A stretch of DNA of 64,000 nt from Salinigranum rubrum (GTDB lineage: Archaea > Halobacteriota > Halobacteria > Halobacteriales > Haloferacaceae), in the NCBI RefSeq assembly GCF_002906575.1, contig NZ_CP026309.1:3472001-3536000 (forward strand), given 5' to 3'. Below, piece after piece: positions 5,620-53,897 of this stretch. Each line of letters starts with the position of its first letter. Position 1 is the stretch's first letter. The notes below the pieces were generated by a model, which made no database searches, was not told where the DNA came from, and saw only the letters and a program-made list of their open reading frames with translations. Position numbers and translations under genes: made by a program.

Positions 5620-6498
5620 ATGGGCGGCACGAGACGGACCCGCGTGAACAGTGAGGAGACCCCGGTTCGAGAACGGGTGGGGGAGGTCCTCGGCGAGGGG
5701 GTCGCGCGACTCGAAGAACTCGACGGCGGCATGGTCGGCACCGTCCACCGCGTCGTCCTCGAGTCGGGGGAGACACTGGTCGCGAAGACCGGCGACACCC
5801 CGCTCGACGTCGAGGCACGGATGCTCCGGTATCTGGCACGACACACCTCGTTTCCGGTTCCCGCCGTCGAGTACGCCGACGCCGAGGTGCTCGTCCTCGC
5901 GCACGTCCCGGGCGACACCGAACACTCCCCGAGCGTCGAGCGCGACGCGGCCGACCACCTCGCCGCGCTGCACGGCCACACGGCGGGCGCGTTCGGCTTC
6001 CCGTTCGATACGCTGTCCGGTCCGCTGCGACAGCCGAACCGCTGGTGCACCTCGTGGGTCGCGTTCTTCGGCGAGCGCCGACTCGGCCACGTCGCCGACG
6101 TCGCACACGAAGCGGGAACCGTCGGCGACGGGACGCGTGAGCGCCTCGCCCGCGTCGTCTCGGACCTCGGCGCGCTCCTCGACGAACCCGCTCGGCCCGC
6201 ACTCGTCCACGGCGACGTCTGGACCGAGAACGTCCTCTCGGAGGGAGGGGCGGTCACGGCGTTTCTCGACCCGGCGTGTTACTACGGCCACCCGGAGGTC
6301 GAACTCGCGTACGTCGCGTGGACGGAGACGTTCGGCGACGCGTTCGTCGAGCGCTACCGCGAGCGACGCCCGGTCGCTCCCGGCTTCGAAGAGCGGCGAC
6401 GGGTGTACGAACTCCTCCCGCTGCTCGAACACGTCCACCTGTTCGGCGGGCGCTATCGGGGACTGCTCGACGACGCGCTGACGCGGCTCGGATACTGA
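5620..6498 (+). CDS. Fructosamine kinase/phosphotransferase-family protein
   Basis: The product has about 290 residues and the protein-kinase-like fold of the fructosamine kinase family (ketosamine-3-kinase). It shows the N-terminal ATP-binding lobe (GMVGTVHRVVLESGETLVAKTG), the catalytic loop HGDVWTENVL and the metal-binding loop DPACYYGHPEVELAY. Family members phosphorylate glycated amines as a protein-repair step; related phosphotransferases act on other small molecules. The start is uncertain: ATG at 5620 is used here, GTG at 5644 would give a tighter N-terminus, and in-frame GTGs occur farther upstream. Confidence 0.8.
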   Translation: MGGTRRTRVNSEETPVRERVGEVLGEGVARLEELDGGMVGTVHRVVLESGETLVAKTGDTPLDVEARMLRYLARHTSFPVPAVEYADAEVLVLAHVPGDTEHSPSVERDAADHLAALHGHTAGAFGFPFDTLSGPLRQPNRWCTSWVAFFGERRLGHVADVAHEAGTVGDGTRERLARVVSDLGALLDEPARPALVHGDVWTENVLSEGGAVTAFLDPACYYGHPEVELAYVAWTETFGDAFVERYRERRPVAPGFEERRRVYELLPLLEHVHLFGGRYRGLLDDALTRLGY

Positions 6499-6517
6499 GT
6501 GCCGGGTCGGAAGTCGG

Positions 6518-6910
6518 TCAGTCGTACGTCCGCGACGACGCTGTTCCCACACGCACCCGAACGAGGCGGTTCTCGTCCCACGCGTCCTCGCTGGCGCCGT
6601 ACTTGGCGTTGATGCGTCGGGTCGCCTCGCGGGTCGCCTCCTCGTCGTCGACCACCGTCGCCGTGCCGAGGAGGGCGACCGCCCACCGGGCGTGGCCGCC
6701 CTCGTCCTTCTGAATCGAGAGGGCGACCCGGGGGTTCTCGCGGACGTTCGCGAGCTTTCGGCCGGTGGTGACGAGTTCGACGGTTTCCGTGCGCTCGTCG
6801 TACACGTACCAGACGGGAGCGACGTGCGGGCGGCCGTCGCGGCAGGTCGCGAGGTGGGCCATCAGCGGTTCGCTCGTGAGCAGGCGTGCGACCTCCGAAG
6901 GAACGGACAT
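6518..6910 (-). CDS. Pyridoxamine 5'-phosphate oxidase-family flavoprotein
   Basis: This 130-residue split-barrel protein has the N-terminal strand pair MAHLATCRDGRPHVAPVWYVYDE, then a loop (TTGRKLANVRENPRVALSIQKDE) that binds flavin phosphate in the family. It is too short for a true PNPOx and resembles the single-domain F420- or FMN-binding reductases common in archaea and actinobacteria. The cofactor cannot be told from sequence alone, but the F420 genes elsewhere in the window make F420 a reasonable possibility (inference). It converges on the kinase gene. Confidence 0.78.
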   Translation of the reverse strand: MSVPSEVARLLTSEPLMAHLATCRDGRPHVAPVWYVYDERTETVELVTTGRKLANVRENPRVALSIQKDEGGHARWAVALLGTATVVDDEEATREATRRINAKYGASEDAWDENRLVRVRVGTASSRTYD

Positions 6911-7018
6911 ACCGCGGGGAGGGACGCGGAGCTGAAAAGGGTCGTGTCGCGGGCGGAGAGGGTATCGAGGGAACCGAGCGCGTCGAGTGCGTCGCGGGGT
7001 GGCGAAAACGCCAACGAC

Positions 7019-7279
7019 TCAGAGTCGGAGGAACAGCACCAACACCCCGAGCGTCGTCGCGGAGGCGGAGATGACGAGGAGGCCGGCGACGACCACGAAC
7101 GTCTCCGCGGGGATGACCAGGACGCCTCCGGAGATCATCCCGGAGACCGACGCCTGCGCCGCGAGTTGCTGCAGCGGGTAGAGCACCGCCAGACAGAGCG
7201 CCGTGAGGCCAACGAGGAGCAGGGCGAGCGCCGGGATGGGGTCGCTCGCGGACCGGGCGTGGTCGAGCCGCCTGCTCAT
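7019..7279 (-). CDS. Small membrane protein, unknown
   Basis: This 86-residue protein has two long hydrophobic segments (about residues 16-37 and 51-84) and a short charged N-terminus (MSRRLDHARSASD). No family is recognised. The reading frame continues open upstream to 7882, but that part lies antisense to msrB, so the ATG at 7279 is the likely start. Upstream AT-rich sequence (GCTATATC on this strand near 7310) is a credible promoter. Confidence 0.55.
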   Translation of the reverse strand: MSRRLDHARSASDPIPALALLLVGLTALCLAVLYPLQQLAAQASVSGMISGGVLVIPAETFVVVAGLLVISASATTLGVLVLFLRL

Positions 7280-7439
7280 GTGTACGCTCAACGCGTGCGT
7301 CGATGATATAGCTTTTCTTGAATTATACGTTCTGAGAATAGACGTCGGGCCGGATACGGCGGTTCGAGCGTCGGTCCGGCCGGCCGAACGGTGGCAGCAG
7401 CCAACGCGTCCGAACGTCGCGTTCGGAGCGAAGCTCGTG

Positions 7440-7856
7440 TCAGTCCGAGTCGGGTTCGAAGTCGAGGGCGACGGAGTTGATGCAGTAGCGCTTCCCGGTC
7501 GGGTCCGGACCGTCCTCGAAGACGTGTCCGAGGTGGCCGTCACAGGTCGCACACAGCACTTCGATGCGGCGCATGCCGTGACTGGTGTCGACGCGCGTCT
7601 CGACGTTGCCCGAGAGGACGTCGTAGAAGCTGGGCCACCCGCTGTTCGAGTCGAACTTCGTGTCGGAGTCGAACAGTGGCGTGCCGCACCCGGCACAGAC
7701 GTACGTCCCGTCGTCGGACTTCCCGAGGAAGTCGCCGCTGAACTTCGGCTCGGTGCCGTGCTCGCGGAGGATGCGGTACGCCTCGGGCGAGAGCCGTTCT
7801 CGCCACTCGGCGTCGGAGTCGGGCAGGTCGCTGCGGTCTGTGGTCGACGAGTCCAT
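7440..7856 (-). CDS. msrB: Peptide-methionine (R)-S-oxide reductase MsrB
   Basis: The 138-residue enzyme repairs methionine-R-sulfoxide in oxidised proteins. The zinc site is formed by CAGC and CATC pairs. The signature GWPSFYDVL and the catalytic cysteine in [10 protein letters not shown] are both present, so it should be active. The start chosen is [12 protein letters not shown]; the longer frame from 7952 adds a low-complexity stretch in the upstream intergenic region. No msrA is beside it. Confidence 0.92.
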
Positions 7857-7970
7857 ACGGGAAGGAGGCGCCGGAGACGCATGAGGGTTTGGCGTGGGAG
7901 AGGAGCGGTGCAGGGATCCCCCCGTTTCGATTGTAGTGGATAGGTTCGTCATCAGTTAGTCGGTGAGGAC

Positions 7971-8280
7971 GAAGGCCGCACGACACCGGCCGCGGTGAGG
8001 TCACGTCCTCCCCCAGTCGATTCGCTCGTTCCCTCGTTCAGCCCTCGCGTGCGCGTCATCGCTTGGCGAGACCGCTGGTCTCACTGGCTCCCGTTTCACT
8101 CACGGGAACGGCCACGGAGGCCGCGGGCGTCACGCGCTACCGTTCGTACTGTTGGCGGTCGGCGCGCGGGACGGAGCGAGCGGAGGGAGCGACGGACTCG
8201 TGCGAGGGGACGCTCGCGCCTCCGTGCGCGAGCACCCGGCTGGGGAGGTCAGAGGCTCCGGTCTCACCGCGCCCGTGCTC
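7971..8280. repeat. Inverted pair of dispersed intergenic repeat (copy A)
   Basis: The 552-base gap between msrB and the next gene holds two facing copies of a motif seen elsewhere in the window. The left arm (about 7975-8030) runs CCGCACGACAC...GCGGTGAG... to CTCCCCCAGTCGATTCGCTCG. The right arm (about 8226-8280) is its reverse complement, with core CGGCTGGGGAGG at 8237-8248. Small palindromes sit between, for example GAGACC-GCT-GGTCTC near 8069. No gene is evident. The arrangement matches copy D at 38.0-38.2 kb. Confidence 0.5.
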
Positions 8281-8310
8281 CGTGCGGTTGCCGTGTTGTT
8301 TGCGGCTCCT

Positions 8311-8369
8311 GTCGAACACGTCTCGACAACAGAACAGTATCTCACTTGTCGAATACGTCCCGACAACAG
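8311..8369. repeat. Two 22-base near-identical repeats, each an imperfect palindrome
   Basis: Positions 8311-8332 and 8348-8369 match at 20 of 22 bases, with a 37-base period. Each begins GTCGAA and ends CGACAACAG, and each contains an inverted GTCG/CGAC pair. They lie about 40 bases beyond the stop codon of the 8409-8834 gene, so they could be a processing or termination site, or paired protein-binding sites. Two units are too few, and the spacer too short, to call CRISPR. Confidence 0.5.
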
Positions 8370-36625: not shown

Positions 36626-37597
36626 ATGTTCGGCATCGAACTCACGCCGGAACACCCCGTCGGCGAGGTGGTCGACCTCGGGGTGCTGGCCGAATCGGAG
36701 GGCTACGACACCGTCTTCGTCTCCTCGCACTACAACAACCGCGACCCGTTCGCCGTCCTGGCGCGCCTCGCGAGCGAGACCGAATCCGTGCGCCTGGGCC
36801 CGGGCGTCGTCAACCCCTACGAGCGACACCCGGTGACGCTCGCCTCCCAGACGGCGACGGTCGCAGAGGCGTCGGAGGGGCGGGCCGTCTTCGGCATCGG
36901 GCCGGGCGACCCCTCGACGCTGAAGAACCTCGGTCTCGAAGGCGAGCGAGGGCTCCGCTCGGTTCTGGAGGCGTTCACGGTGGCTCGACGGCTCTGGCGC
37001 GGCGAGCGCGTCTCCCACGACGGGACGTTCACGTGCGAGGACGCGGGGCTGAACTTCGACGTGTCGGGCGAGATTCCGGTGTACGTCGGCGGCGAGGGGC
37101 CACACATGTGCCGGATGGCGGGGAAACACGCCGACGGCCTGCTGTTCAACGGCTCCCACCCCGACGACCTAGCCTGGGCGCGCGAACGGGTCGAAGAAGG
37201 GATGCAAGACCGCCCCGACGAACACGGGGAGTTCGACCTCGCGGCGTACGCCAGCGTCTCGGTCGCGGCGGACCGCGAGGCCGCACGGGAGGCCGCGCGT
37301 CCCCCGGTGGCGTTCATCACCGCCGGTGCGGCACCGCCCGTACTCGACAGACACGGCATCGACCACGAGCGAGCGGAGGACATCGGCGAGAAGATCAGCG
37401 CCGGCGACTTCTCCGAGGCGTTCGAGCGCGTGACGCCGGCGATGATCGACGCGTTCTGCATGGCCGGAACGGTCGACGAGGTGGGAGAACGGATGGCTCG
37501 GGTCGAAGAGCACGCGGACAGTCTCGTGGTCGGGTCGCCGCTCGGGCCGGAGGTAGAAGAAGCGATTACTCTTGCCGCGGCGGCGCACGACCGATAG
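36626..37597 (+). CDS. mer: 5,10-methylene-H4MPT/folate reductase-like, F420-dependent (Mer-type)
   Basis: The 323-residue protein belongs to the luciferase-like F420-dependent family. It shows the Mer-type N-terminus (MFGIELTPEHPVGEVVDLGVLAESEGYDTVFVSSHYNNRDPFAVLA), LGPGVVNPYERHPVTLASQ, GIGPGDPSTLKNLG and IPVYVGGEGPHMCRMAGKHADGLLFNG. In methanogens Mer reduces methylene-H4MPT with F420H2; haloarchaea use folates and probably have an equivalent C1 reductase. It lies close to cofE. The 3' end overlaps a convergent membrane gene by 32 bases. Confidence 0.85.
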   Translation: MFGIELTPEHPVGEVVDLGVLAESEGYDTVFVSSHYNNRDPFAVLARLASETESVRLGPGVVNPYERHPVTLASQTATVAEASEGRAVFGIGPGDPSTLKNLGLEGERGLRSVLEAFTVARRLWRGERVSHDGTFTCEDAGLNFDVSGEIPVYVGGEGPHMCRMAGKHADGLLFNGSHPDDLAWARERVEEGMQDRPDEHGEFDLAAYASVSVAADREAAREAARPPVAFITAGAAPPVLDRHGIDHERAEDIGEKISAGDFSEAFERVTPAMIDAFCMAGTVDEVGERMARVEEHADSLVVGSPLGPEVEEAITLAAAAHDR

Positions 37598-40986: not shown

Positions 40987-42156
40987 TTACCCGCGCGCGA
41001 CGCGGACGACGGCCTCGCGGTCTACCGACTCGGCCGCGGCGTACCCCGAGAGTTCGAGCGTCAGGTCGAACGCGGCTCGGAGGTTCCGAACCACGTCTCT
41101 CACGCCGTCCTCGCCCGCGAGCGTCAGGCCGGAGCAGTACGGCCTCCCCAGGAGCACCGCGTCCGCGCCGAGCGCGAGCGCCCGAAAGACGTCCGCGCCG
41201 GTTCGAATCCCGCTGTCGAACAGGACCGGCACCCTGTTGTCGACCGCCTCGGCGACCGGTTCGAGCGCGTCGAGCGCCGCGAGTTCGCCGTCGACCTGCC
41301 GGCCGCCGTGGTTCGAGACGACGACGCCGTCGGCTACGTCGGCCGCGCGCGCCGCGTCGTCGGGGTGCATGACTCCCTTGAGGTACAGCGGAAGGGCGGT
41401 CCGCTCGCGGAGCCACGCGACGTCGTCCCAGTCGAGGCTCGCGTCGCCGAGACACTCCGCGACGACCGCCGCAACCGCCTCGTCGTCGGGGTCGTCTCCC
41501 AGTCGCTCGCGGACGACCGGGTCAGACGCGTAGTTCGCGAGACCGTGGCCATGGTCGAACGGGACGTACTCCGAAGAGAGTTCGCGGGTCCGCCACCCCG
41601 TCACGGGCGTGTCGACCGTGAGGACGAGCGCGGAGTAGCCCGCCCGCTCGGCCCGGCGAACCATGCTCGCCGTCACCTCCCGGCCGGACCAGTACGCCTG
41701 GAACCACCGAACCGGGGTCTCGGTTCCCCCATCGGCTTCGGCGGCCGCGTCCTGTTCCCGCGCGACGGCTTCGAGCGACACCGAGGAGACGGTGCTCAGA
41801 CAGAGCGCCGTTCCCGTCCGGCCGGCGGCGCGCGCAGTCGCCTCCTCGGCCTGGTCGTCGTACAGCGACTGCATCCCGATGGGGGCGAGGGCGACGGGGT
41901 GCGACAGGCGCTCGTCGCCGACGGTCACCCGGTGGTCGCGCGTCGAGGTGTCTCGCAGGACCCGCGGTCGGATTCGCCACCGGTCGAACGCGCGGCGGTT
42001 CTCCCGCACGCTCCCTTCGGTCTCGGCCCCGCCGACGAGGTACGCTCGCGGTCCCGGGTCGAGTGCGGCCGCCGCCCGCTCGGCCAGCGTCTCGGGGTCG
42101 AGCGGGACCGTCGACCCGCCCGCGAGGAGGTCGTCCTTTCGGCTGGTGCCGTCCAT
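40987..42156 (-). CDS. FMN-dependent alpha-hydroxy-acid oxidase (lactate oxidase/dehydrogenase-like)
   Basis: The 389-residue TIM-barrel flavoenzyme shows PVALAPIGMQSLYDDQAEEATARAAGRTGT, PVRWFQAYWSGREV, the FMN-binding TVDTPVTGWR and YLKGVMHPDDA. The active-site His/Arg are in VVSNHGGRQVDG, and the phosphate site is VLFDSGIRTGADVFRALALGADAVLLGRPY. Family members oxidise L-lactate, glycolate or mandelate. The acidic N-terminal extension is modest. It is convergent with the sirtuin gene; cofH starts divergently 92 bases away. Confidence 0.88.
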   Translation of the reverse strand: MDGTSRKDDLLAGGSTVPLDPETLAERAAAALDPGPRAYLVGGAETEGSVRENRRAFDRWRIRPRVLRDTSTRDHRVTVGDERLSHPVALAPIGMQSLYDDQAEEATARAAGRTGTALCLSTVSSVSLEAVAREQDAAAEADGGTETPVRWFQAYWSGREVTASMVRRAERAGYSALVLTVDTPVTGWRTRELSSEYVPFDHGHGLANYASDPVVRERLGDDPDDEAVAAVVAECLGDASLDWDDVAWLRERTALPLYLKGVMHPDDAARAADVADGVVVSNHGGRQVDGELAALDALEPVAEAVDNRVPVLFDSGIRTGADVFRALALGADAVLLGRPYCSGLTLAGEDGVRDVVRNLRAAFDLTLELSGYAAAESVDREAVVRVARG

Positions 42157-42247
42157 GCGGGGACCACTCTCCGCGGGGAAATAGTGGTTCGCGTCCCCGC
42201 GTTCTTCGACCGGCCCACTTTTCACCCCGGGGCGACTCCCAGAGGGC

Positions 42248-43636
42248 ATGTCATCAGGGCACGGTGCATCCGGTCCCGACCCGTCCGACGTGCGGTTCGA
42301 GCACGTCCCGGAGACGGACCAGTCGTTCGAGAACGCCCTGGCGAAGGCGCGCGCCGGCGAGCGCCTCAGCGTCGACGACGGCGTCGAACTCCTCACGACG
42401 GGAACCGACAGCGAGGGAATCGACCCGGGTCGGAAGGAACTCGTCCTCGAAGCGGCGGACCGCCGCCGGGCCGACGTCGTCGGCGAGGACGTCACCTTCG
42501 TCGCCAACCTCAACAACAACGTCACGACCGCCTGCAACACCGGCTGTCTGTTCTGCAACTTCAAGGACACCGCCCACCGGTTCGAGACGGGCGGCGAGGA
42601 ACACGGCGGTTTCACCAAACCGCCCGCCGAATCCCGCCGAATCGTCGAGGAGACGCTCGACTACGGCATCTCGGAGGTGTGTTCGGTGTCCGGACTCCAC
42701 CCGGCGTTCGCCCTCGACGACGAGCACCACGAGATACTCGCGTCGTACGACCGCCCCGCACAGGAGGTCAACTACAAGCCACCGGAGCGGTACGAGGTCG
42801 ACCCCGGTACCTACCTCGAACAGATAGACGCGATGAGCGTCGGCGGCGTCCACCTCCACTCGATGACGCCCGAGGAGGCCTATCACGCCAGGCGGGGGAC
42901 CGACTGGTCGTACGAGTCGGTGTATCGCAAGTTGAGAGAAGCGGGGCTGGACTCCGCGCCCGGCACCGCGGCCGAGATTCTCGTCGACGAGGTGCGCGAC
43001 GTCATCTGCCCCGGGAAAATCGACTCGGCGGGGTGGGTCGAGGCGATGGAGGGAGCGATGAACGCGGGGCTGGACGTCACCGCGACGATCATGTACGGCC
43101 ACGTCGAGAACGAGCGACATCGCGTCATGCACCTCGACGTCGTTCGGGAGTTACAGGACCGCACGGGGGGTATCACCGAGTTCGTCCCGCTCTCGTTCGT
43201 CCACCAGAACACCCCGCTCTATCGACGGGGCGTCGTCGACGGCGGCGCCTCGGACGCCGAGGACGAACTCATGATCGCCGTTTCGAGACTCTTCCTCGAC
43301 AACGTCGACAACGTCCAGTCGTCGTGGGTGAAGTACGGGAACGCGAAGGCGCTCAAACTCCTCAACTGCGGCGCGAACGACCTCATGGGGACCATCCTCT
43401 CCGAGGAGATCACGAAACGCGCCGGCGGCCAGTACGGCGAGTTCCGCTCCGTGGCCGACTACGTCGACATGGTCTCGGCCGTCGGCCGACCGCTGGTCGA
43501 GCGGTCGACCGACTACCGCCGTCGACACCGGATCGGCCCGGACGACCCGCCGTTCGGCCCCCATCTCGGTCCGCGGGCGGACGGGACGCCGATGCTGAGT
43601 CGCTCGCCCCCCAGCGTGACGGCTGACGACGACTAG
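42248..43636 (+). CDS. cofH: FO synthase subunit 2, CofH (radical SAM)
   Basis: The 462-residue radical SAM enzyme has the cluster motif CNTGCLFCNF and the CofH continuation EVCSVSGLHP, YLEQIDAMSVGGVHLHSMTPEEAYHARRG, APGTAAEILVDEVRDVICPGKI and the C-terminal RLFLDNVDNVQSSWVKYG. With CofG it makes the F420 chromophore FO from tyrosine and 5-amino-6-ribitylamino-uracil. A long N-terminal region before the cluster and an acidic linker are haloarchaeal features. The box ACTTTTCAC near 42217-42225 is 26 bases before the ATG. cofG is about 6 kb downstream on the opposite strand. Confidence 0.93.
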   Translation: MSSGHGASGPDPSDVRFEHVPETDQSFENALAKARAGERLSVDDGVELLTTGTDSEGIDPGRKELVLEAADRRRADVVGEDVTFVANLNNNVTTACNTGCLFCNFKDTAHRFETGGEEHGGFTKPPAESRRIVEETLDYGISEVCSVSGLHPAFALDDEHHEILASYDRPAQEVNYKPPERYEVDPGTYLEQIDAMSVGGVHLHSMTPEEAYHARRGTDWSYESVYRKLREAGLDSAPGTAAEILVDEVRDVICPGKIDSAGWVEAMEGAMNAGLDVTATIMYGHVENERHRVMHLDVVRELQDRTGGITEFVPLSFVHQNTPLYRRGVVDGGASDAEDELMIAVSRLFLDNVDNVQSSWVKYGNAKALKLLNCGANDLMGTILSEEITKRAGGQYGEFRSVADYVDMVSAVGRPLVERSTDYRRRHRIGPDDPPFGPHLGPRADGTPMLSRSPPSVTADDD

Positions 43637-45983: not shown

Positions 45984-47645
45984 TCAGTGGTCCGACTCGT
46001 GTGGGTTCAGTACCGTCCCGTAGTTCTCCGCGTGTTCGGTGTACTCGATGAACCGCGGCGCGTCGGGGTCGAACGGGCGCCGGAGCGACTCGAACGCTTG
46101 CTTCTTGTCCCACCCCTGGAGCTTCCCGACGGCGCTTCGGTCTTCGAGGTCGTGGTAGTCCAGGTCGTCCTCGGTGAGGTTCCACGCCTTCAGCCCCTGT
46201 TCCGTGCGAACGATGACGCTCGAATACTCGTCCGAGGAGCCCACGGAGCCGACCGTGAGGTCCGCGCAGTAGCCGGTGAAGTCCGCACACTCGTCACAGC
46301 CTTTCAGCGCCGCGCCGTGGAAGTTCTCGACGTCCTCCTCGACGAGCAGGTCGCCGTCGTGGTCGTACGCCATGAACTTCCCGTGGAGCACGTCGAGTTT
46401 CCCGATTTCGTCGGGAGCGATGCCTCGTTGTTCCTCCAACTGCTCCCCGATGAGGCGGTGGTAGTTGAAGTTCTTCGTACACATCAGCGCGATGGTGTAC
46501 TCGACGGCGCGGACGCCCGTTTCCTGAGCGCCGTACTCCCAGTCGAAGTCCTGCAGCGCCCGGATGCCCTCGATTTCGCAGGGCGTGCCGACGAGCGCGA
46601 GCGAGAGGTCCTCGGGGTCACCGTCGATGTCTGCCACGAGGTCCGAAACGTCGAGCGCGCCGAGCGCCATCGTCTGGTTGTAGAAGCTTCCCGCGTTCTC
46701 GACGAGTTCCTCCGGCGTGGTCGCGAGGAACGGCTCTGCCTTCCACGGTTCCGTCGCCGATTCGGTGGCGACGAGCGCCCCGTCTATCTCGCCCGCCTCC
46801 AGCAGGTGGATGAGCACCGACGTGACGAGGCCGCCGTCCTGTGCGTTCTCGCGCCACGGCTCCTCGACTCTGGCGGAGAACTCCGTGATGGGGTCGCCCG
46901 CGCCCTTCACGTTGTCCTCGCCGCCGGTTATCTTCCACTGGCGCTCGTACCGGAGGCCGCCGCGGGGACAGAAGTCCCAGCAGAGCGAACAGCCGGTGCA
47001 CATCTTCACCAACTCCGGGAGGCCGTCGTCGCCGATACCGATGGAGTCGGAGGGACAGGCGGCGACGCAGGTCCCACACTGGATACACCGCCCCTCGTCG
47101 ATGACCGCCGCGTCGAGTTCCATGAACCACGTCTTCTCGTCGGGTTCGGCGATAGCGTTCATCTCGCTCCGAATCCGATAGGAGGGCGTGTCGAGGTCCT
47201 CGGGGGCGACGCCGTCGGGGAGTTGGACGCGGCGGTCGGCCGGTTCGTCGTACACGTCCTGGCTCGCTGCCTCCCGGGGAGGGGTAAAGGAGAGGTCCGT
47301 GAGGTTCCCCTCGCTGTCGACGTTCTCCGGGCGGGACCCACCGTCGGTCGCGGCCCGTCCCGTCGAGTCACACCCGCACGACTCGCCACAGGCACACCCG
47401 ATATCGGACTCGTCCGCCGACGTCTCGGGTGGTCGCTGTCGCCCTCGCCGTCGTCGGAACCGGATGGGTTTCCAGCCGTCGCCGGTGACCGCATTGGGGT
47501 TCTGCACCTGCGGGTCGCTTCCGCCGCCGTCGGGGACGCGGGGGAACCGGACCGGGTCCTCGTCCTCCTGTCCGGTCTCGTCTTCGACGAGTTCGGGCGC
47601 GACGTCGGCCGGGGCGTTCGTCGACCGTCGGGAGGGGTCAGTCAT
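45984..47645 (-). CDS. FrhB/FdhB-type F420 dehydrogenase beta subunit with two [4Fe-4S] sites
   Basis: The 553-residue protein has an N-terminal extension with a cysteine cluster CACGESCGC (C84, C86, C90, C92), then a two-cluster ferredoxin segment: C187-x2-C190-x2-C193-x3-C197 and C216-x2-C219-x2-C222-x3-C226. The rest is the FrhB_FdhB fold that binds FAD and oxidises F420H2 in methanogen hydrogenases and Fsr (LVTSVLIHLLEAGEIDGALV, GTPCEIEGIRALQ, LMCTKNFNYHRLI, KGCDECADFTGYCADLTVGSVGS). Its start overlaps the upstream sulfite/nitrite reductase by 8 bases, so it is almost certainly its electron-donor partner. Both clusters are intact. Confidence 0.85.
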   Translation of the reverse strand: MTDPSRRSTNAPADVAPELVEDETGQEDEDPVRFPRVPDGGGSDPQVQNPNAVTGDGWKPIRFRRRRGRQRPPETSADESDIGCACGESCGCDSTGRAATDGGSRPENVDSEGNLTDLSFTPPREAASQDVYDEPADRRVQLPDGVAPEDLDTPSYRIRSEMNAIAEPDEKTWFMELDAAVIDEGRCIQCGTCVAACPSDSIGIGDDGLPELVKMCTGCSLCWDFCPRGGLRYERQWKITGGEDNVKGAGDPITEFSARVEEPWRENAQDGGLVTSVLIHLLEAGEIDGALVATESATEPWKAEPFLATTPEELVENAGSFYNQTMALGALDVSDLVADIDGDPEDLSLALVGTPCEIEGIRALQDFDWEYGAQETGVRAVEYTIALMCTKNFNYHRLIGEQLEEQRGIAPDEIGKLDVLHGKFMAYDHDGDLLVEEDVENFHGAALKGCDECADFTGYCADLTVGSVGSSDEYSSVIVRTEQGLKAWNLTEDDLDYHDLEDRSAVGKLQGWDKKQAFESLRRPFDPDAPRFIEYTEHAENYGTVLNPHESDH

Positions 47646-49343
47646 CGGCAGCGACACCCCCCGACACGTCGGCGTCCGCTTGCCGCATCACCGACCGAAG
47701 CCGGTCGTTGTCGACCCGACGACACCACTCGTAGAAGCGCTCGTCCTCGCGGCGCTCGGTCGCGAAGGCGTCGAACAGCGCCTCCAGCGCCGGCACGACG
47801 GCCTCGGCCGGGACCGCCGCCTCGACCCAGTCGAGGAACTCGTTGTCGCTCCCGAGCGACCCGCCCAGACCGAAGTCCATCCCTTCGACGACCGCGTCCC
47901 CCTCCTCGTTCGTCGTGCGCTCGGGGTCGTCGAGCTTCACCGTCTCGCCTCGGAAGCCGATGTCGGCGATCTGCGGCTGGGCGCAGGAGGCCGAACAGCC
48001 GGACATGTGCATCCGCACCACTTCGAGGTCGTCCGGCGTGTCGATGCGGCGGTCGAGCGCCTTCGCCCACCGCCGGACCCGCTGTTTGGTCTCGATGATG
48101 CCGTAGCTACAGAACTCCGAGCCGGTACACCCGACCGCGCCTCGCGAGAACGGCCCGGGGTCGGGACGGTACTTCCTGGCGAACGGTTCGCTCAGGAGGT
48201 CGTCGAGGTTCTCCTCGGGGACGTGCGTGACGAGGAAGTTCTGGTCGGTCGCCAGTCGAACCGAGGCGTCGTCGGTACCGTGTCGCTCGGCGGCGCGGGC
48301 GGCCTGGACGAACTCCTCGCCGCCCATCCGCCCCGCGATGACGTTGAAGCCGACGTAGTACAGGCCCTCCCGTTTCTGCTCGTGGACGCCGACGTGGTCG
48401 CCGCGATACCCCCGGTGAGGTCGGTTCCCCGAGTGGGGAGGTCGACGGCGCAGCGGTCGCGGACCGCCGCCTCGAACCGCTCGGGACCGAGTTGCTGGAC
48501 GAGATAGCGCATCCGACACACGCCACGGTTCTCGCGGTTACCGAGTTCCTTGAACGTCTGCGCGACGGCGCGCGTGAACTCGACTGCATCCCCCGGCGGA
48601 ACGAACACATCGAGGTCGGAGGCCATCCGCGGCCCGTCCGAGAGGCCGCCGCCGACGCGGACGTGGAAGCCGTACTGGTCCGCTCCGCCGACGACTTTCC
48701 GCGCGGGCGTCAGGCCGACGTCGTTGATCTGTGACTGCGCGCAGTCCTCCCGACAGCCCGTGACCGTCATCTTGAACTTCCGCGGGAGGTTCGCGTACTC
48801 CCGGTTCTCGGTGAAGAAGTCCGAGACGGCGTCGACGACGGGCTGAGCGTCGAAGCACTCGTGGTCGTCGAGTCCCGCGGCGGGACAGCCGAGGACGTTG
48901 CGTGCGGAGTCGCCACAGCCCTGAATCGTCGTGAGTCCGACCTCGTCGTACCGGTCCCAGATGTCTGGGACGTCTTCGACCTCGATCCAGTGCATCTGAA
49001 CGTCCTGTCGGGTCGTGATGTCGAGGAAGGCGTCGCCCCACACGGGGTTCTGCTCCGCGCCGCCGTGTTCGTCGGGCGCGGTGGCGTAGTCGCGCGCGAC
49101 TTCGCCGACGACCCGGGCCTGCTCCGGCGTGAGGAACCCGCCGGGGACCTTCGTCCGCATCATGAAGTAGCCCCGCTGGCGGCCGTGGCTGTACATGCCG
49201 GCCCACTTGAGCCGCTCCCACTCGCCGTCGCCCGCCCGCTCTTCTATCTCGTCGAAGGTCAGCCCCTCCGCAGCGTACTCGTAGAGGTCCTCGACGACGT
49301 CGAGCGGGTGTTTCTCCTGCTTCCACCGTTCGACGGTGTTCAC
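47638..49343 (-). CDS. Siroheme sulfite/nitrite reductase, frameshifted near 48411
   Basis: The N-terminal half (VNTVERWKQEKHPLDVVEDLYEYA...GCREDCAQSQINDVG...VRVGGGLSDGPRMASDLDVFV) reads to LTGG. The C-terminal half (YRGDHVGVHEQKREGLYYVGFNV...) is in another frame. Adding one G to the coding-strand G5 run (complement of 48409-48413) gives 568 residues. The siroheme-[4Fe-4S] ligands C-x5-C (CTGSEFC) and C-x3-C (GCSASC) lie after the break. Start: GTG 49343 has GGAGGTG seven bases upstream, a strong ribosome site that beats GTG 49352. Its gene end overlaps the FrhB-type gene. Sulfite versus nitrite specificity is not decided by sequence. Confidence 0.82.
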
Positions 49344-49349
49344 GCGACC

Positions 49350-49356
49350 CACCTCC
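49350..49356 (-). promoter_or_regulatory. Shine-Dalgarno site deciding the reductase start
   Basis: On the minus strand GGAGGTG sits seven bases before GTG 49343 and complements the CCUCC at the 3' end of archaeal 16S rRNA. It is the best ribosome-binding site noted in this window, where most genes look leaderless. It indicates the reductase mRNA carries a 5' leader. Confidence 0.6.
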
Positions 49357-49622: not shown

Positions 49623-50726
49623 TCACGCCCGCGTGACGCTCGCGTCGGAGAGACACGCCCGGTACCGCGCGCCGGCATCGGTGTCGGCGGCGATGGCGGC
49701 GCGGACGCGGTCGGAGACCCACTCCTCGCCCAGGTACCGCTCGTACACCGGGAGGCGCTCGTGGAGGGGGACGCCCGCCTCGCTCGCGAGGTCCTCTAGC
49801 TCCCGGAGCGCGGGCCAGGCGTAGTCGGGGTTGATGTAGTCGTCCGTCACGGGCGAGACGCCGCCGAGGTCGTCGACGCCGCAGTCGAGGAGCGAGGAGG
49901 TGGGCGAGAGGTTCGGCGGCACCTGCACCGACACCTCCTCGGGGAGGGCGACGCGCGCCATGGCGACGACGCGGCGCATCGTCTCGACCGAGGGTCGTTC
50001 GAACGACGAGCGCTCGTTCGGGACGACGTTCTGGACGATGACCTCCTGGACGTGGCCGTACCGCTCGTGTAGGCCTCGAATCGCCAGGAGCGACTCGGCG
50101 CGGTCGCGCCACGTCTCGCCGATACCGACCAGGAGTCCGGTGGTGAACGGCACCCCCGTCTCGCCCGCGGCGCGGATGGTGTTGAGCCGCTGGCCGGGCG
50201 TCTTCTTCCGCCCGCCGGAGTGTGCGGCCACGTCGGCGGTCGTCTCCAGCATGACGCCCATCGAGGCGTTCACCTCTCTCAGACGAGCGAACTCCGACTC
50301 GACGAGGTCGCCGGGGTTCGAGTGCGGCAGCAAGCCCACGTCGAGTGCGAGTTCGCACATCTCGTACAGGTAGTCGACGATGGAGTCGTGGCCCCACTCG
50401 GCCAGTTGGTCGTGAATCGCCTCGTAGCGAGCGTCGGGCTTGTCGCCGAACGTGAACAGCGCCTCCGTACACCCGGCGTCGGCGCCCATCCGCAGCATCT
50501 CTTCGACCTCCTCGGGCGACATGAGCGACGCCTGCCCGGGGACGTCGTAGTACGTGCAGTACGTGCAGGTGTACCGGCAGGCGGTCGTCAGCGGGAGGAA
50601 GACGTTTCGCGAGAAGGTGAGCGCGGGGGCAGGGTCGACGTCGGCGGGCGTCGCCGCGAGCAGTCGGTCGACCGCCCGCTCGTCGACCGTGAGTTCGACG
50701 CCGTACTCCTCGGCCCCGGGGAACAT
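49623..50726 (-). CDS. cofG: FO synthase subunit 1, CofG (radical SAM)
   Basis: The 367-residue radical SAM protein has the cluster motif CRYTCTYCTYYD, the glycine-rich SAM segment GCTEALFTFGDKPDARYEAI, LLPHSNPGDLVESEFARLREVNASMGVMLE, GETGVPFTTGLLVGIGETWRDRAESLLAI, and HVQEVIVQNVVPN. It works with CofH to form FO. MFPGAEEYGVEL at ATG 50726 is the family start; the frame continues open upstream but carries no homology. A TATA-like GCTTTTGTCC (complement of 50747-50756) lies about 26 bases upstream. Confidence 0.93.
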   Translation of the reverse strand: MFPGAEEYGVELTVDERAVDRLLAATPADVDPAPALTFSRNVFLPLTTACRYTCTYCTYYDVPGQASLMSPEEVEEMLRMGADAGCTEALFTFGDKPDARYEAIHDQLAEWGHDSIVDYLYEMCELALDVGLLPHSNPGDLVESEFARLREVNASMGVMLETTADVAAHSGGRKKTPGQRLNTIRAAGETGVPFTTGLLVGIGETWRDRAESLLAIRGLHERYGHVQEVIVQNVVPNERSSFERPSVETMRRVVAMARVALPEEVSVQVPPNLSPTSSLLDCGVDDLGGVSPVTDDYINPDYAWPALRELEDLASEAGVPLHERLPVYERYLGEEWVSDRVRAAIAADTDAGARYRACLSDASVTRA

Positions 50727-50731
50727 ATCCG

Positions 50732-50748
50732 CCCTCCGACGCGGAGGG
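50732..50748 (-). promoter_or_regulatory. Perfect palindrome in the cofG promoter
   Basis: CCCTCCG-ACG-CGGAGGG is a 7-base inverted repeat with a 3-base centre, located between the TATA-like box (50747-50756) and the cofG start codon. It covers the likely transcription start, so it would be a good operator, or a hairpin at the 5' end of the message. Confidence 0.45.
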
Positions 50749-50869
50749 ACAAAAGCGAACGGGTCGACGCCGACCCGGCTCACCCGGCCGCACTGAAACG
50801 CCGCGGTCACGACGCCCTCGTCGGACGGGAAAACGGTGAAGAACGCACCGGTCGAACACCACTCACATC

Positions 50870-51842: not shown

Positions 51843-52412
51843 ATGCGCCGCCGCCCGGCCCTCGCGGTCCTCGCAACCCTCGTCGGCGCCGTCTCCGGGT
51901 GCGGCACGCGCCTCCCGCCGTCCGCACGGACGCCCGCCTCGGTGGCGTCGACCGGCACACCGACGCTCGACGAATCACCACCCCTCGACGAACTCCCGTG
52001 TCCCCCCGCCGACGTGAACCCCGAGACGGCGGTCTGTCCGGGCGAGCGCGACGACGCGTCCGTCGCCGTCCGCACCAACCGCCCGAGCGTCGCTCTCGAC
52101 GACGCCGGGAGCGTTCGGTTCGTCCTCGAAAACGGGACCGGCGACGGACTCCGATTCAATCCGAACAACCCCGACGTCTACCGGTTCACGGGGGAGCGGT
52201 ACGAACTCGTCGAGCGACGGTCGAGCGGGAGCGGGGTCACGACGGTGCCGCCGAACGGAACGTACAGCTGGCGACTGGCCGACCTGCCGCAGTTCGACCG
52301 CCTCTCGGTGGGGACGTTCCTGTTCGCCGTCTCCGTCCCGACGGCGGGAACGATGGGCGCCGACTGGGTGACGTGTCTCGCGCCGTTTCGCCTCACCGAC
52401 GGGCGAGGGTGA
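51843..52412 (+). CDS. Putative lipoprotein, unknown function
   Basis: The 189-residue exported protein has a lipobox VSGC (Cys20) and a short Ser/Thr/Pro linker. A small beta-rich domain follows (RPSVALDDAGSVRFVLENGTGDGLRFNPNNPDVYRFTGERYELVERR...PPNGTYSWRLADLP). The pattern of an Ig-like intracellular-protease-inhibitor or BsuPI-type domain is suggested by FVLENGTG...NPNNPDVYRF...YSWRL, but this is not certain. Its 3' end overlaps cofC by 20 bases on the other strand. Confidence 0.65.
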   Translation: MRRRPALAVLATLVGAVSGCGTRLPPSARTPASVASTGTPTLDESPPLDELPCPPADVNPETAVCPGERDDASVAVRTNRPSVALDDAGSVRFVLENGTGDGLRFNPNNPDVYRFTGERYELVERRSSGSGVTTVPPNGTYSWRLADLPQFDRLSVGTFLFAVSVPTAGTMGADWVTCLAPFRLTDGRG

Positions 52413-53094
52413 CGCGGCCCTCCGCTTCGCTGACGGCGAGTTCGAACCGCGAGGTGAGCCAGTCTCGCGTCCGCTCGCCGCCGTGGACGAACGCCTCGAC
52501 GAGGTCCGCGGGTTCGTCGACGTCGGTCGCGAGTCTGAACGAGTCGACGGTCCCGACCGTCCCGACGTCGGCGGCGGCGCGCCGGTGGTCCAGGTAGGAC
52601 GCCCCGTGGAAGTCGGTCCGAAACGCGGGCGTGCGGACGACGAGGGCGTTCGTCCCGAGGCCGCGGCCGGGGACGAGGACGACGTCTTCGTCGGGCTGGA
52701 CGAGGCGAGAGAGCGCGTCGGGGGTGGCGAGCGCGAGGTCGGCCATCACCACGACGAGCGGCTCGCTCGCTCCGGCCTCGCCTTCGCCGACCGTCTCGGC
52801 GATGGCGTCGTCGACGACCGAGTCGAGCGAGCGGTCGTCGACCCGGACCGTCACCGACGGATCGGAGTCGGAACTGTCGACGTCGCGTTCGAGGGGAGGG
52901 TCGAGCGGGGCCGTCGAGACCACGTCCACCGCGACGTCGACGCCCGCCACCGCGTCCGCCCTCGACAGACCGACGACGGCGTCGAGCACGTCACGGAGCA
53001 TACACCGGGCGAATTCGCGGCGCTCGGTGGCGTCCAGAACGGGAGCGAGTCGGGTCTTCGGGTCCGTCGCGTCGAAGGGGACGACGACGCGCAT
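52393..53094 (-). CDS. cofC: 2-phospho-L-lactate guanylyltransferase CofC
   Basis: The 233-residue nucleotidyltransferase activates 2-phospholactate (or phosphoenolpyruvate) with GTP for F420 synthesis. Family features are MRVVVPFDATDPKTRLAPVLDATERREFARCML, VVVMADLALATPDALSRLV, VVLVPGRGLGTNALVVRTPAFRTDFHGASYLDH and FRLATDVDEPADLVEAFVHG. The central insertion (DVDSSDSDPSV) is acidic. The gene starts 5 bases after the membrane protein that follows cetZ1, so it belongs to that operon. Confidence 0.92.
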   Translation of the reverse strand: MRVVVPFDATDPKTRLAPVLDATERREFARCMLRDVLDAVVGLSRADAVAGVDVAVDVVSTAPLDPPLERDVDSSDSDPSVTVRVDDRSLDSVVDDAIAETVGEGEAGASEPLVVVMADLALATPDALSRLVQPDEDVVLVPGRGLGTNALVVRTPAFRTDFHGASYLDHRRAAADVGTVGTVDSFRLATDVDEPADLVEAFVHGGERTRDWLTSRFELAVSEAEGRVTLARR

Positions 53095-53099
53095 CCCGG

Positions 53100-53897
53100 T
53101 CACCCGAGCGGGTCGTGGCTGTCCTGCTGTGAGCGCCAGTAGAGGAACCCGCCCACGAGGAGGGCGACCACGACGAGGCCAGCGACCGCGTACAGCACGA
53201 GGGTGAACGTCTGCTGCGACTGCTGGGCGGACTGCGCCTGCGACTGTGCCTCGTTCGCGAGTTCGGTGGCCAGGTCGAAGTTCTCCGACTCGTAGGCGTT
53301 CACGGCCTGGTTGAACGTGTTCTCGGCCTCGCCGGGGTTCGCGCCGTTCTCTCGGGCGGCGTCGATGGCGGCCTGCGCGTCGTCGAGGGCGTTGCGCGCC
53401 CGGTCGCTCCCGGACGTGAAGTGGTGGGCCTCCCAGGTGTCGAGGGCGTTCGTGTTGCCGCCCTCGCGCGCCTGCGTCAGCGACGCGACCACGAACGTCT
53501 GTTCGGGGTCGTACGAGTACGATTCGACGGGCGGGGCCGTCCCGGTCACGCGGATACGGACCTCCGCGGTGCCGTCGGACGCCGAAATCTGCGAGGAGGA
53601 GAAGTTCTGTCCGTCGAACTCCTCGCGGCCGACCGTCGCGCCGGTCTGGTCGACGTAGGAGAGAGACCACGTGACGTCGCGGAGTTCGGTCTCGCCGCGC
53701 AGCTGCCACTGTTCGAGGGTCGGGTTCTGATACAACTCGGTCAGCGTAAACGTCGCTTCGACCTGCGAGCCGACGGCTGTTTCTTCCGGAACGTCCGCGT
53801 TCCCGACACTGAGCGCGGCGACGGGTGCGGCGACCGAAAGCAGGACCAACAGGGCGAGGAGGAGGCTAGAAAAGCGACTCCAGTTCGTCTTCGTCAT
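53100..53897 (-). CDS. Exported coiled-coil membrane protein in cetZ1 operon
   Basis: The 265-residue protein has an N-terminal signal peptide (SLLLALLVLLSVAAPVAALS), a beta-rich outer domain (about residues 30-150: VGSQVEATFTLTELYQNPTLEQWQL, then EVRIRVTGTAP) and a helical, Gln/Ala-rich segment (ARNALDDAQAAIDAARENG...ATELANEAQSQAQSAQQSQQ). One C-terminal transmembrane helix and a short inside tail follow. The start overlaps the cetZ1 3' end by 32 bases. I recognise no named family. Its position suggests it could connect CetZ1 to the envelope (inference). Confidence 0.72.
   Translation of the reverse strand: MTKTNWSRFSSLLLALLVLLSVAAPVAALSVGNADVPEETAVGSQVEATFTLTELYQNPTLEQWQLRGETELRDVTWSLSYVDQTGATVGREEFDGQNFSSSQISASDGTAEVRIRVTGTAPPVESYSYDPEQTFVVASLTQAREGGNTNALDTWEAHHFTSGSDRARNALDDAQAAIDAARENGANPGEAENTFNQAVNAYESENFDLATELANEAQSQAQSAQQSQQTFTLVLYAVAGLVVVALLVGGFLYWRSQQDSHDPLG

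Follow-up and report, generated by a model that had tools for sequence, protein, structure and literature searches.

The question raised by this locus is whether two adjacent genes of the haloarchaeon Salinigranum rubrum encode an enzyme that takes its electrons from reduced coenzyme F420 (F420H2) and, if so, which anion it reduces. The genes are located on the minus strand of a stretch of 64,000 nucleotides (assembly GCF_002906575.1, contig NZ_CP026309.1, forward-strand positions 3,472,001 to 3,536,000), referred to below as the window and numbered from its first letter. One of them, aFsr-beta (45984..47645, minus strand), encodes an FrhB/FdhB-type F420H2-dehydrogenase subunit. Upstream of it, over 1.7 kb and in two reading frames, lies homology to siroheme nitrite/sulfite reductases, here called aFsr-alpha. 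Comparative analysis indicates that the product of the locus is very probably a sulfite reductase of assimilatory type (aFsr), with two subunits and F420H2 as its electron source. A two-gene counterpart of the single-chain F420H2-dependent sulfite reductase (Fsr) had been suggested in an initial annotation made from the DNA letters alone.

Such an enzyme was proposed for haloarchaea by Susanti and Mukhopadhyay in 2012, as the combination of an alpha subunit of the assimilatory siroheme reductase (aSir) type and a beta subunit homologous to Fsr-N (PMC3448663), and the present pair is a further case of this published aFsr, not a new system. The same two subunits occur in the same taxa and nothing essential differs, save that alpha is frameshifted here: an aSir-type gene, its frame broken, adjoins the gene of an Fsr-N homolog made of an FrhB domain and two N-terminal ferredoxin-type [4Fe-4S] sites. 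The enzyme was still called putative by Heryakusuma et al. in 2022 (PMC9295563), and no experimental test of it was found in the open-access literature searched, subscription papers being outside that search. The present analysis lends the 2012 proposal further weight and leaves fewer options for the substrate, and is no substitute for an assay. As far as the available text of the 2012 paper goes, the linkage to F420 genes, the bacterial cof-cys cluster, the strict co-occurrence of the subunits and the Lys-x-Lys argument go beyond it (PMC3448663).

Bacterial and archaeal genomes were searched using beta alone as the query, which yielded 80 loci, 68 haloarchaeal and 12 bacterial (L070-L081, from Rubrobacter-type Actinobacteria and one Chloroflexi bin). 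Alpha adjoins beta on the same strand in 80/80 of these loci, in Archaea and Bacteria. Orthologs were also surveyed in 242 evenly sampled haloarchaeal genomes, which are related to each other and so are not 242 independent trials: beta was found in 67 of them, alpha in the identical 67, and the remaining 175 have neither. The pair is patchily distributed (34/73 genera, and 2/4 genomes of the window's own genus) and is never split; pairwise divergences of alpha and beta are correlated, with r = 0.93 for the full set of loci and 0.75 for the haloarchaeal ones. Chance adjacency of the two genes was rejected on the 80/80 loci and the identical occurrence in 67 genomes. Conservation across haloarchaea, which the initial annotation had set in advance as a check on its idea, was thus observed. 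Homologs from Rubrobacter and Thermobaculum already appear in the 2012 beta tree, in the part of that paper available (PMC3448663). Adjacency and identical occurrence, together with the cof linkage and the nearest structures described below, support the two-subunit Fsr-like idea well.

The beta frame is complete. It can be read from the ATG at 47645 or from an in-frame GTG at 47657 (45984..47657, minus strand, 557 aa counted from the GTG), and when read from the ATG it shares 8 bases with the 3' end of alpha (stop codon 47638-47640), as had been annotated. The protein matches both domains of its Pfam family far above cut-off (FrhB_FdhB_N PF04422, E 2e-23; FrhB_FdhB_C PF04432, E 2e-33) and also contains a two-cluster ferredoxin domain, which bears out its first assignment. 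With residues numbered from GTG 47657 and all features on the minus strand, [4Fe-4S] motif A comprises C191, C194, C197 and C201 (47055..47087) and motif B comprises C220, C223, C226 and C230 (46968..47000). A third set, C360, C393, C454 and C457 (46287..46580), corresponds to the cluster adjacent to flavin adenine dinucleotide (FAD) in FrhB and Fsr, and pairs with Fsr cysteines in the alignment to structure 7np8. All 12 cysteines, i.e. two ferredoxin-type sites and an FrhB-type site beside FAD, are invariant among 32 aligned betas. Beta thus has the FrhB_FdhB N and C domains with the conserved FAD-proximal-cluster cysteines that characterize FrhB/FDRC proteins.

The best sequence matches of beta among solved structures are 8riu (chain 8riu_B, a component of an F420-reducing CODH, E 2e-42) and Fsr (7np8, E 1.5e-36), and the first twelve fold matches of its predicted model, which is reliable only in the core, are all F420 enzymes. 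These comparisons bear on an alternative in which beta would be a ferredoxin-linked adaptor, fed by reduced ferredoxin in the manner of HCAR-type FrhB relatives, F420 not being a substrate. HCAR (5dqr) has the same fold as beta, alpha belongs to the ferredoxin-dependent NirA/SirA branch, and ferredoxin serves nitrate assimilation in haloarchaea (cited in PMC8305020). However, beta is far nearer to F420 enzymes: the ferredoxin-linked HCAR matches it by sequence with an E of 0.008 and is not its closest relative by sequence or fold, falling below all twelve best F420-enzyme chains. Beta moreover carries its own two-cluster ferredoxin domain, and the pair has F420-biosynthesis genes for neighbours in both haloarchaea and bacteria, though not the same cof genes. 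An adaptor of this kind is considered unlikely.

In the window, the pair sits between cofG (49623..50810, minus strand, directly upstream; TIGR03550 and NF004884 above cut-off) and, on the other flank, cofH (42248..43636, plus strand; NF005609 above cut-off), with cofC nearby (52393..53709, minus strand, domain at residues 207-413; TIGR03552 above cut-off), in agreement with the earlier statement that this DNA encodes F420 synthesis. The order cofC-cofG-alpha-beta is found in the window and in six other loci (L002, L004, L006, L009, L046 and L063). In bacteria, the pair is closely preceded by cofD and cofE or a cofC-cofE fusion, in a cluster ordered cofD, cofC/E, cysH, alpha, beta, a small open reading frame (ORF), sat, cysC and a tauE-like gene; the cof and cys families of these clusters exceed curated cut-offs, and cofE was detected in 10/12 bacterial assemblies having the pair. 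Of the arguments from sequence for F420 as the electron donor of aFsr, this is the strongest: the pair is linked independently in Archaea and in Bacteria, and to different F420 genes in each.

Concerning the substrate, alpha consists of two NIR_SIR_ferr/NIR_SIR repeats with the CX5CXnCX3C pattern, as in assimilatory aSir/NirA reductases, the two repeats being in different frames in the window; an alpha motif at 47983..48129 (minus strand) was found in 78/78 alphas. The sequence LPRKFK (48771..48788, minus strand) aligns with LPRKFK of E. coli CysI and contains the Lys-x-Lys of sulfite reductases, which is present in 77/77 readable alphas. All four positively charged residues (Arg, Arg, Lys, Lys) identified as sulfite-binding in Fsr and in other such reductases (PMC10229431) have counterparts in alpha. 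The genes found around the bacterial pair include cysH (7 loci), sat (10), cysC (6) and a TauE-type transporter (6), and in 7/12 bacterial assemblies with the pair alpha is the sole siroheme reductase (NIR_SIR) gene.

The initial annotation had left the choice between sulfite and nitrite undecided. The pair could be an F420H2-dependent nitrite reductase, like FsrII of anaerobic methanotrophic (ANME) archaea, which reduces nitrite with F420H2 (PMC9295563); siroheme reductases often act on both anions, and NCBIfam names the alpha branch 'ferredoxin--nitrite reductase', but below cut-off. Against this, alpha has Lys-x-Lys, whereas Lys-x-Asn (MPRKFN) is found in the paralog of this genome located beside two nitrate-reductase-type molybdoenzymes (NasA-linked; L097:6692-8753), and plant nitrite reductases have Asn at the same position. 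The genome has a separate, nitrate-linked nitrite reductase, and the bacterial copies of the pair adjoin cysH, sat and cysC. Because of Lys-x-Lys and of the bacterial linkage to sulfate assimilation, the sequence data favour sulfite, so that the first half of the earlier proposal stands; nitrite as main substrate was rejected on the same motif and the cysH/sat linkage, and an FsrII-like nitrite reductase appears very improbable.

The two alpha halves deserve separate description. The N-terminal half (48414..49343, minus strand) is the homologous part of an ORF at 48192..49352 (386 aa); it matches PF01077/PF03460, carries the substrate-binding residues and is 92% identical to the alpha of L002 (Salinigranum salinum, the nearest relative). 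The C-terminal half (47638..48408, minus strand), in another frame, is the homologous part of an ORF at 47638..48519 (293 aa), also matches PF01077/PF03460, holds the siroheme/[4Fe-4S] cysteines and is 85% identical to L002 alpha. A siroheme reductase is therefore present by homology, but not as the single gene first annotated at 47638-49343, which spans 1706 bases, not a multiple of three; the frameshift had been missed. It results from a 1-base deficit at 48409..48413, where the minus strand has five G (five C on the plus strand): the window reads CTCACC-GGGGG-TATCGC and L002, in which both halves are in one frame, reads CTCACG-CGCGGC-TATCGC. Alpha is in a single frame in all 78/78 other loci where both genes are readable, and programmed frameshifting finds no support, every relative being in one frame.

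These facts can be understood in a second way: in this genome the locus would be a decaying remnant, with alpha a true pseudogene and beta left partnerless. Alpha is one base short, the genome has two other siroheme reductases, and the pair occurs in only 2/4 genomes of the genus. On the other hand, the ratio of non-synonymous to synonymous substitution (Ka/Ks) relative to L002 is about 0.10 in alpha both before and after the break, beta is intact and constrained (0.16), and additional stops are absent. The break also falls in a homopolymer. Homopolymers in GC-rich DNA are a common place for sequencing errors. Since Ka/Ks is equally low on both sides and the other loci are single-frame, the break either arose very recently by mutation or is an error of the sequence, and a decaying remnant is a serious possibility but the less probable one. 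Unless the missing base is a sequence error, the enzyme is inactive in this strain; with alpha frameshifted, activity in this strain cannot be assumed.

The frameshift is one of several points that weigh against the reading of the locus as an F420H2-dependent sulfite reductase. For beta, the FrhB fold also occurs in proteins that work without F420 (HCAR, a lower-ranked fold match), the AlphaFold model has a mean pLDDT (predicted local distance difference test) of 56 and is good only in the FrhB core, and the Fsr structures are without bound F420 (PMC10229431), hence offer no reference for mapping the F420 pocket. For the sulfite pathway, CysH-like hits were obtained in only 4/242 haloarchaeal genomes, none over cut-off, and Sat was not found in this genome. 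A second Lys-x-Lys siroheme reductase, widespread in haloarchaea, is also encoded in this genome (L096:7413-10161), so that sulfite reduction there may not depend on aFsr alone.

A sulfate-activation set beside the haloarchaeal pair was looked for and none was found, cysH being nearly absent from the class and Sat missing here. The four CysH-like genomes (G067, G133, G135 and G241), three of them from one genus, all have aFsr. Two tandem CysD/PAPS-reductase-like proteins (PF01507; PAPS, 3'-phosphoadenosine 5'-phosphosulfate) are encoded beside Dph6 in the same genome, far from the pair (L110:7698-9881, C1 about 1415698-1417881), and, given the missing CysH and Sat, are possibly part of a haloarchaeal sulfur-activation route. 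The L096-type reductase was found in 30/67 genomes with aFsr versus 136/175 others (genome table, E < 1e-250); this negative association is only partial and confounded by ancestry, and strict replacement of that reductase by aFsr was rejected.

If aFsr is an F420H2-dependent sulfite reductase, its working can be outlined. F420H2 would pass a hydride to FAD in beta, from which single electrons would travel through the FAD-proximal [4Fe-4S] cluster to the two ferredoxin-type clusters of beta and from these straight into the siroheme-[4Fe-4S] centre of alpha, the two subunits presumably forming a physical complex. There, sulfite would be reduced to sulfide with six electrons (three F420H2) for sulfur assimilation. 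NpdG can swap electrons between reduced nicotinamide adenine dinucleotide phosphate (NADPH) and F420; an NpdG/Fno enzyme is encoded in this genome (NpdG above cut-off) and could supply F420H2 from NADPH.

Group I Fsr (Methanocaldococcus jannaschii, Methanothermococcus thermolithotrophicus; 7np8, 7npa) shares with aFsr the F420H2-oxidase module with two ferredoxin clusters and a siroheme reductase with the Arg/Arg/Lys/Lys substrate residues (PMC10229431). It is one chain, whereas aFsr is encoded by two genes in all loci examined, and a single repeat of DsrLP type makes up its reductase half, whereas alpha is of the two-repeat aSir/NirA type. An additional ferredoxin domain with two further clusters interrupts the reductase half of Fsr (PMC10229431), and it is missing from alpha, where Pfam finds only NIR_SIR and NIR_SIR_ferr and the alignment contains no insert; the ferredoxin domain of beta would therefore have to dock directly on alpha. 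FsrII of ANME-2c likewise has an F420H2 module feeding a siroheme centre, but in a single chain with altered substrate residues, and reduces nitrite, not sulfite, with F420H2 (PMC9295563). Mycobacterium SirA/NirA and plant ferredoxin-nitrite reductases (1zj8, 2akj, 3b0g) belong to the family of alpha, being two-repeat siroheme-[4Fe-4S] reductases; unlike aFsr, they receive electrons from soluble ferredoxin, without a dedicated FrhB-type subunit. The ferredoxin domain of beta would replace this soluble ferredoxin, docking on alpha where ferredoxin docks in SirA/NirA.

A second type of beta, 43-51% identical, was found in 25/242 haloarchaeal genomes (about 10%), after a siroheme reductase in 7/7 loci fetched (L099:6172-9822, L100:3902-7591, L101:3950-7616, L102:3097-6656, L103:5250-9082, L104:5745-9343 and L105 about 5624-8347). 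In the five of them with a fully read reductase, this enzyme has about 800 aa, starts with tandem rhodanese-like domains (confirmed by Pfam in the two scanned) and keeps Lys-x-Lys; in the second rhodanese domain, the expected loop (CNTARR) contains a cysteine. Rhodanese-NirA fusions of Halobacteria were reported in 2024 as cluster 195.2, an FrhB partner not being mentioned in the available part of that report (PMC11237513); they have the reductase fold of alpha plus two N-terminal rhodanese domains, and stand here beside the second beta type. This form could be F420H2-driven, with thiosulfate or persulfides as the source of sulfite or sulfane sulfur to be reduced on the same complex.

What F420 does in haloarchaea has been described as enigmatic (PMC8305020). 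A review from 2021, in its available text, restricts its list of F420 enzymes of the FrhB type to methanogens, ANME and Archaeoglobales, aFsr not being listed (PMC8498797). A conserved F420H2-dependent sulfite reductase, if confirmed, would assign to F420, in aerobic archaea and Rubrobacter-type bacteria, a specific function that genetics can test. It would also mean that the F420H2 module joined siroheme reductases more than once, as a Dsr-like fusion in Fsr and as a separate subunit with an assimilatory-type reductase here. More tentatively, and with doubt prevailing, haloarchaea and F420-making aerobic bacteria may share F420H2-driven sulfite reduction as an assimilatory route of general use beyond the methanogens, one that has diversified to include a rhodanese-fused F420-dependent enzyme converting thiosulfate or persulfide to sulfide.

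Some further features of the locus were recorded. A CxCxxxCxC motif (47370..47396, minus strand; residues 84-92 from the ATG, 88-96 from the GTG) lies in an N-terminal low-complexity leader of beta. The motif is present as first described, but its reading as an extra cluster found no support: it is exact in 13/68 fetched haloarchaeal betas and in 0/12 bacterial ones, and an additional Fe-S cluster was rejected on this variability and on its lack in bacterial copies. Residues 1-113, including the motif, are predicted to be disordered in the AlphaFold model. The leader, being disordered, variable and missing in bacteria, is outside the core machine.

In the bacterial clusters (L070-L081), the small ORF between beta and sat encodes an unknown protein of about 117 aa with no Pfam or NCBIfam match. 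A DUF6360 protein is encoded close downstream of both the L096 and the L097 reductases. Beside cofH, the window encodes an alpha-hydroxy-acid dehydrogenase dependent on flavin mononucleotide (40987-42165, minus strand), possibly related to lactate supply for F420; its Pfam family also occurs near aFsr in L052, L053, L060, L061 and L067. About 9 kb from the pair, a luciferase-like oxidoreductase (36626-37597, plus strand) belongs to PF00296, a family that includes F420-dependent enzymes.

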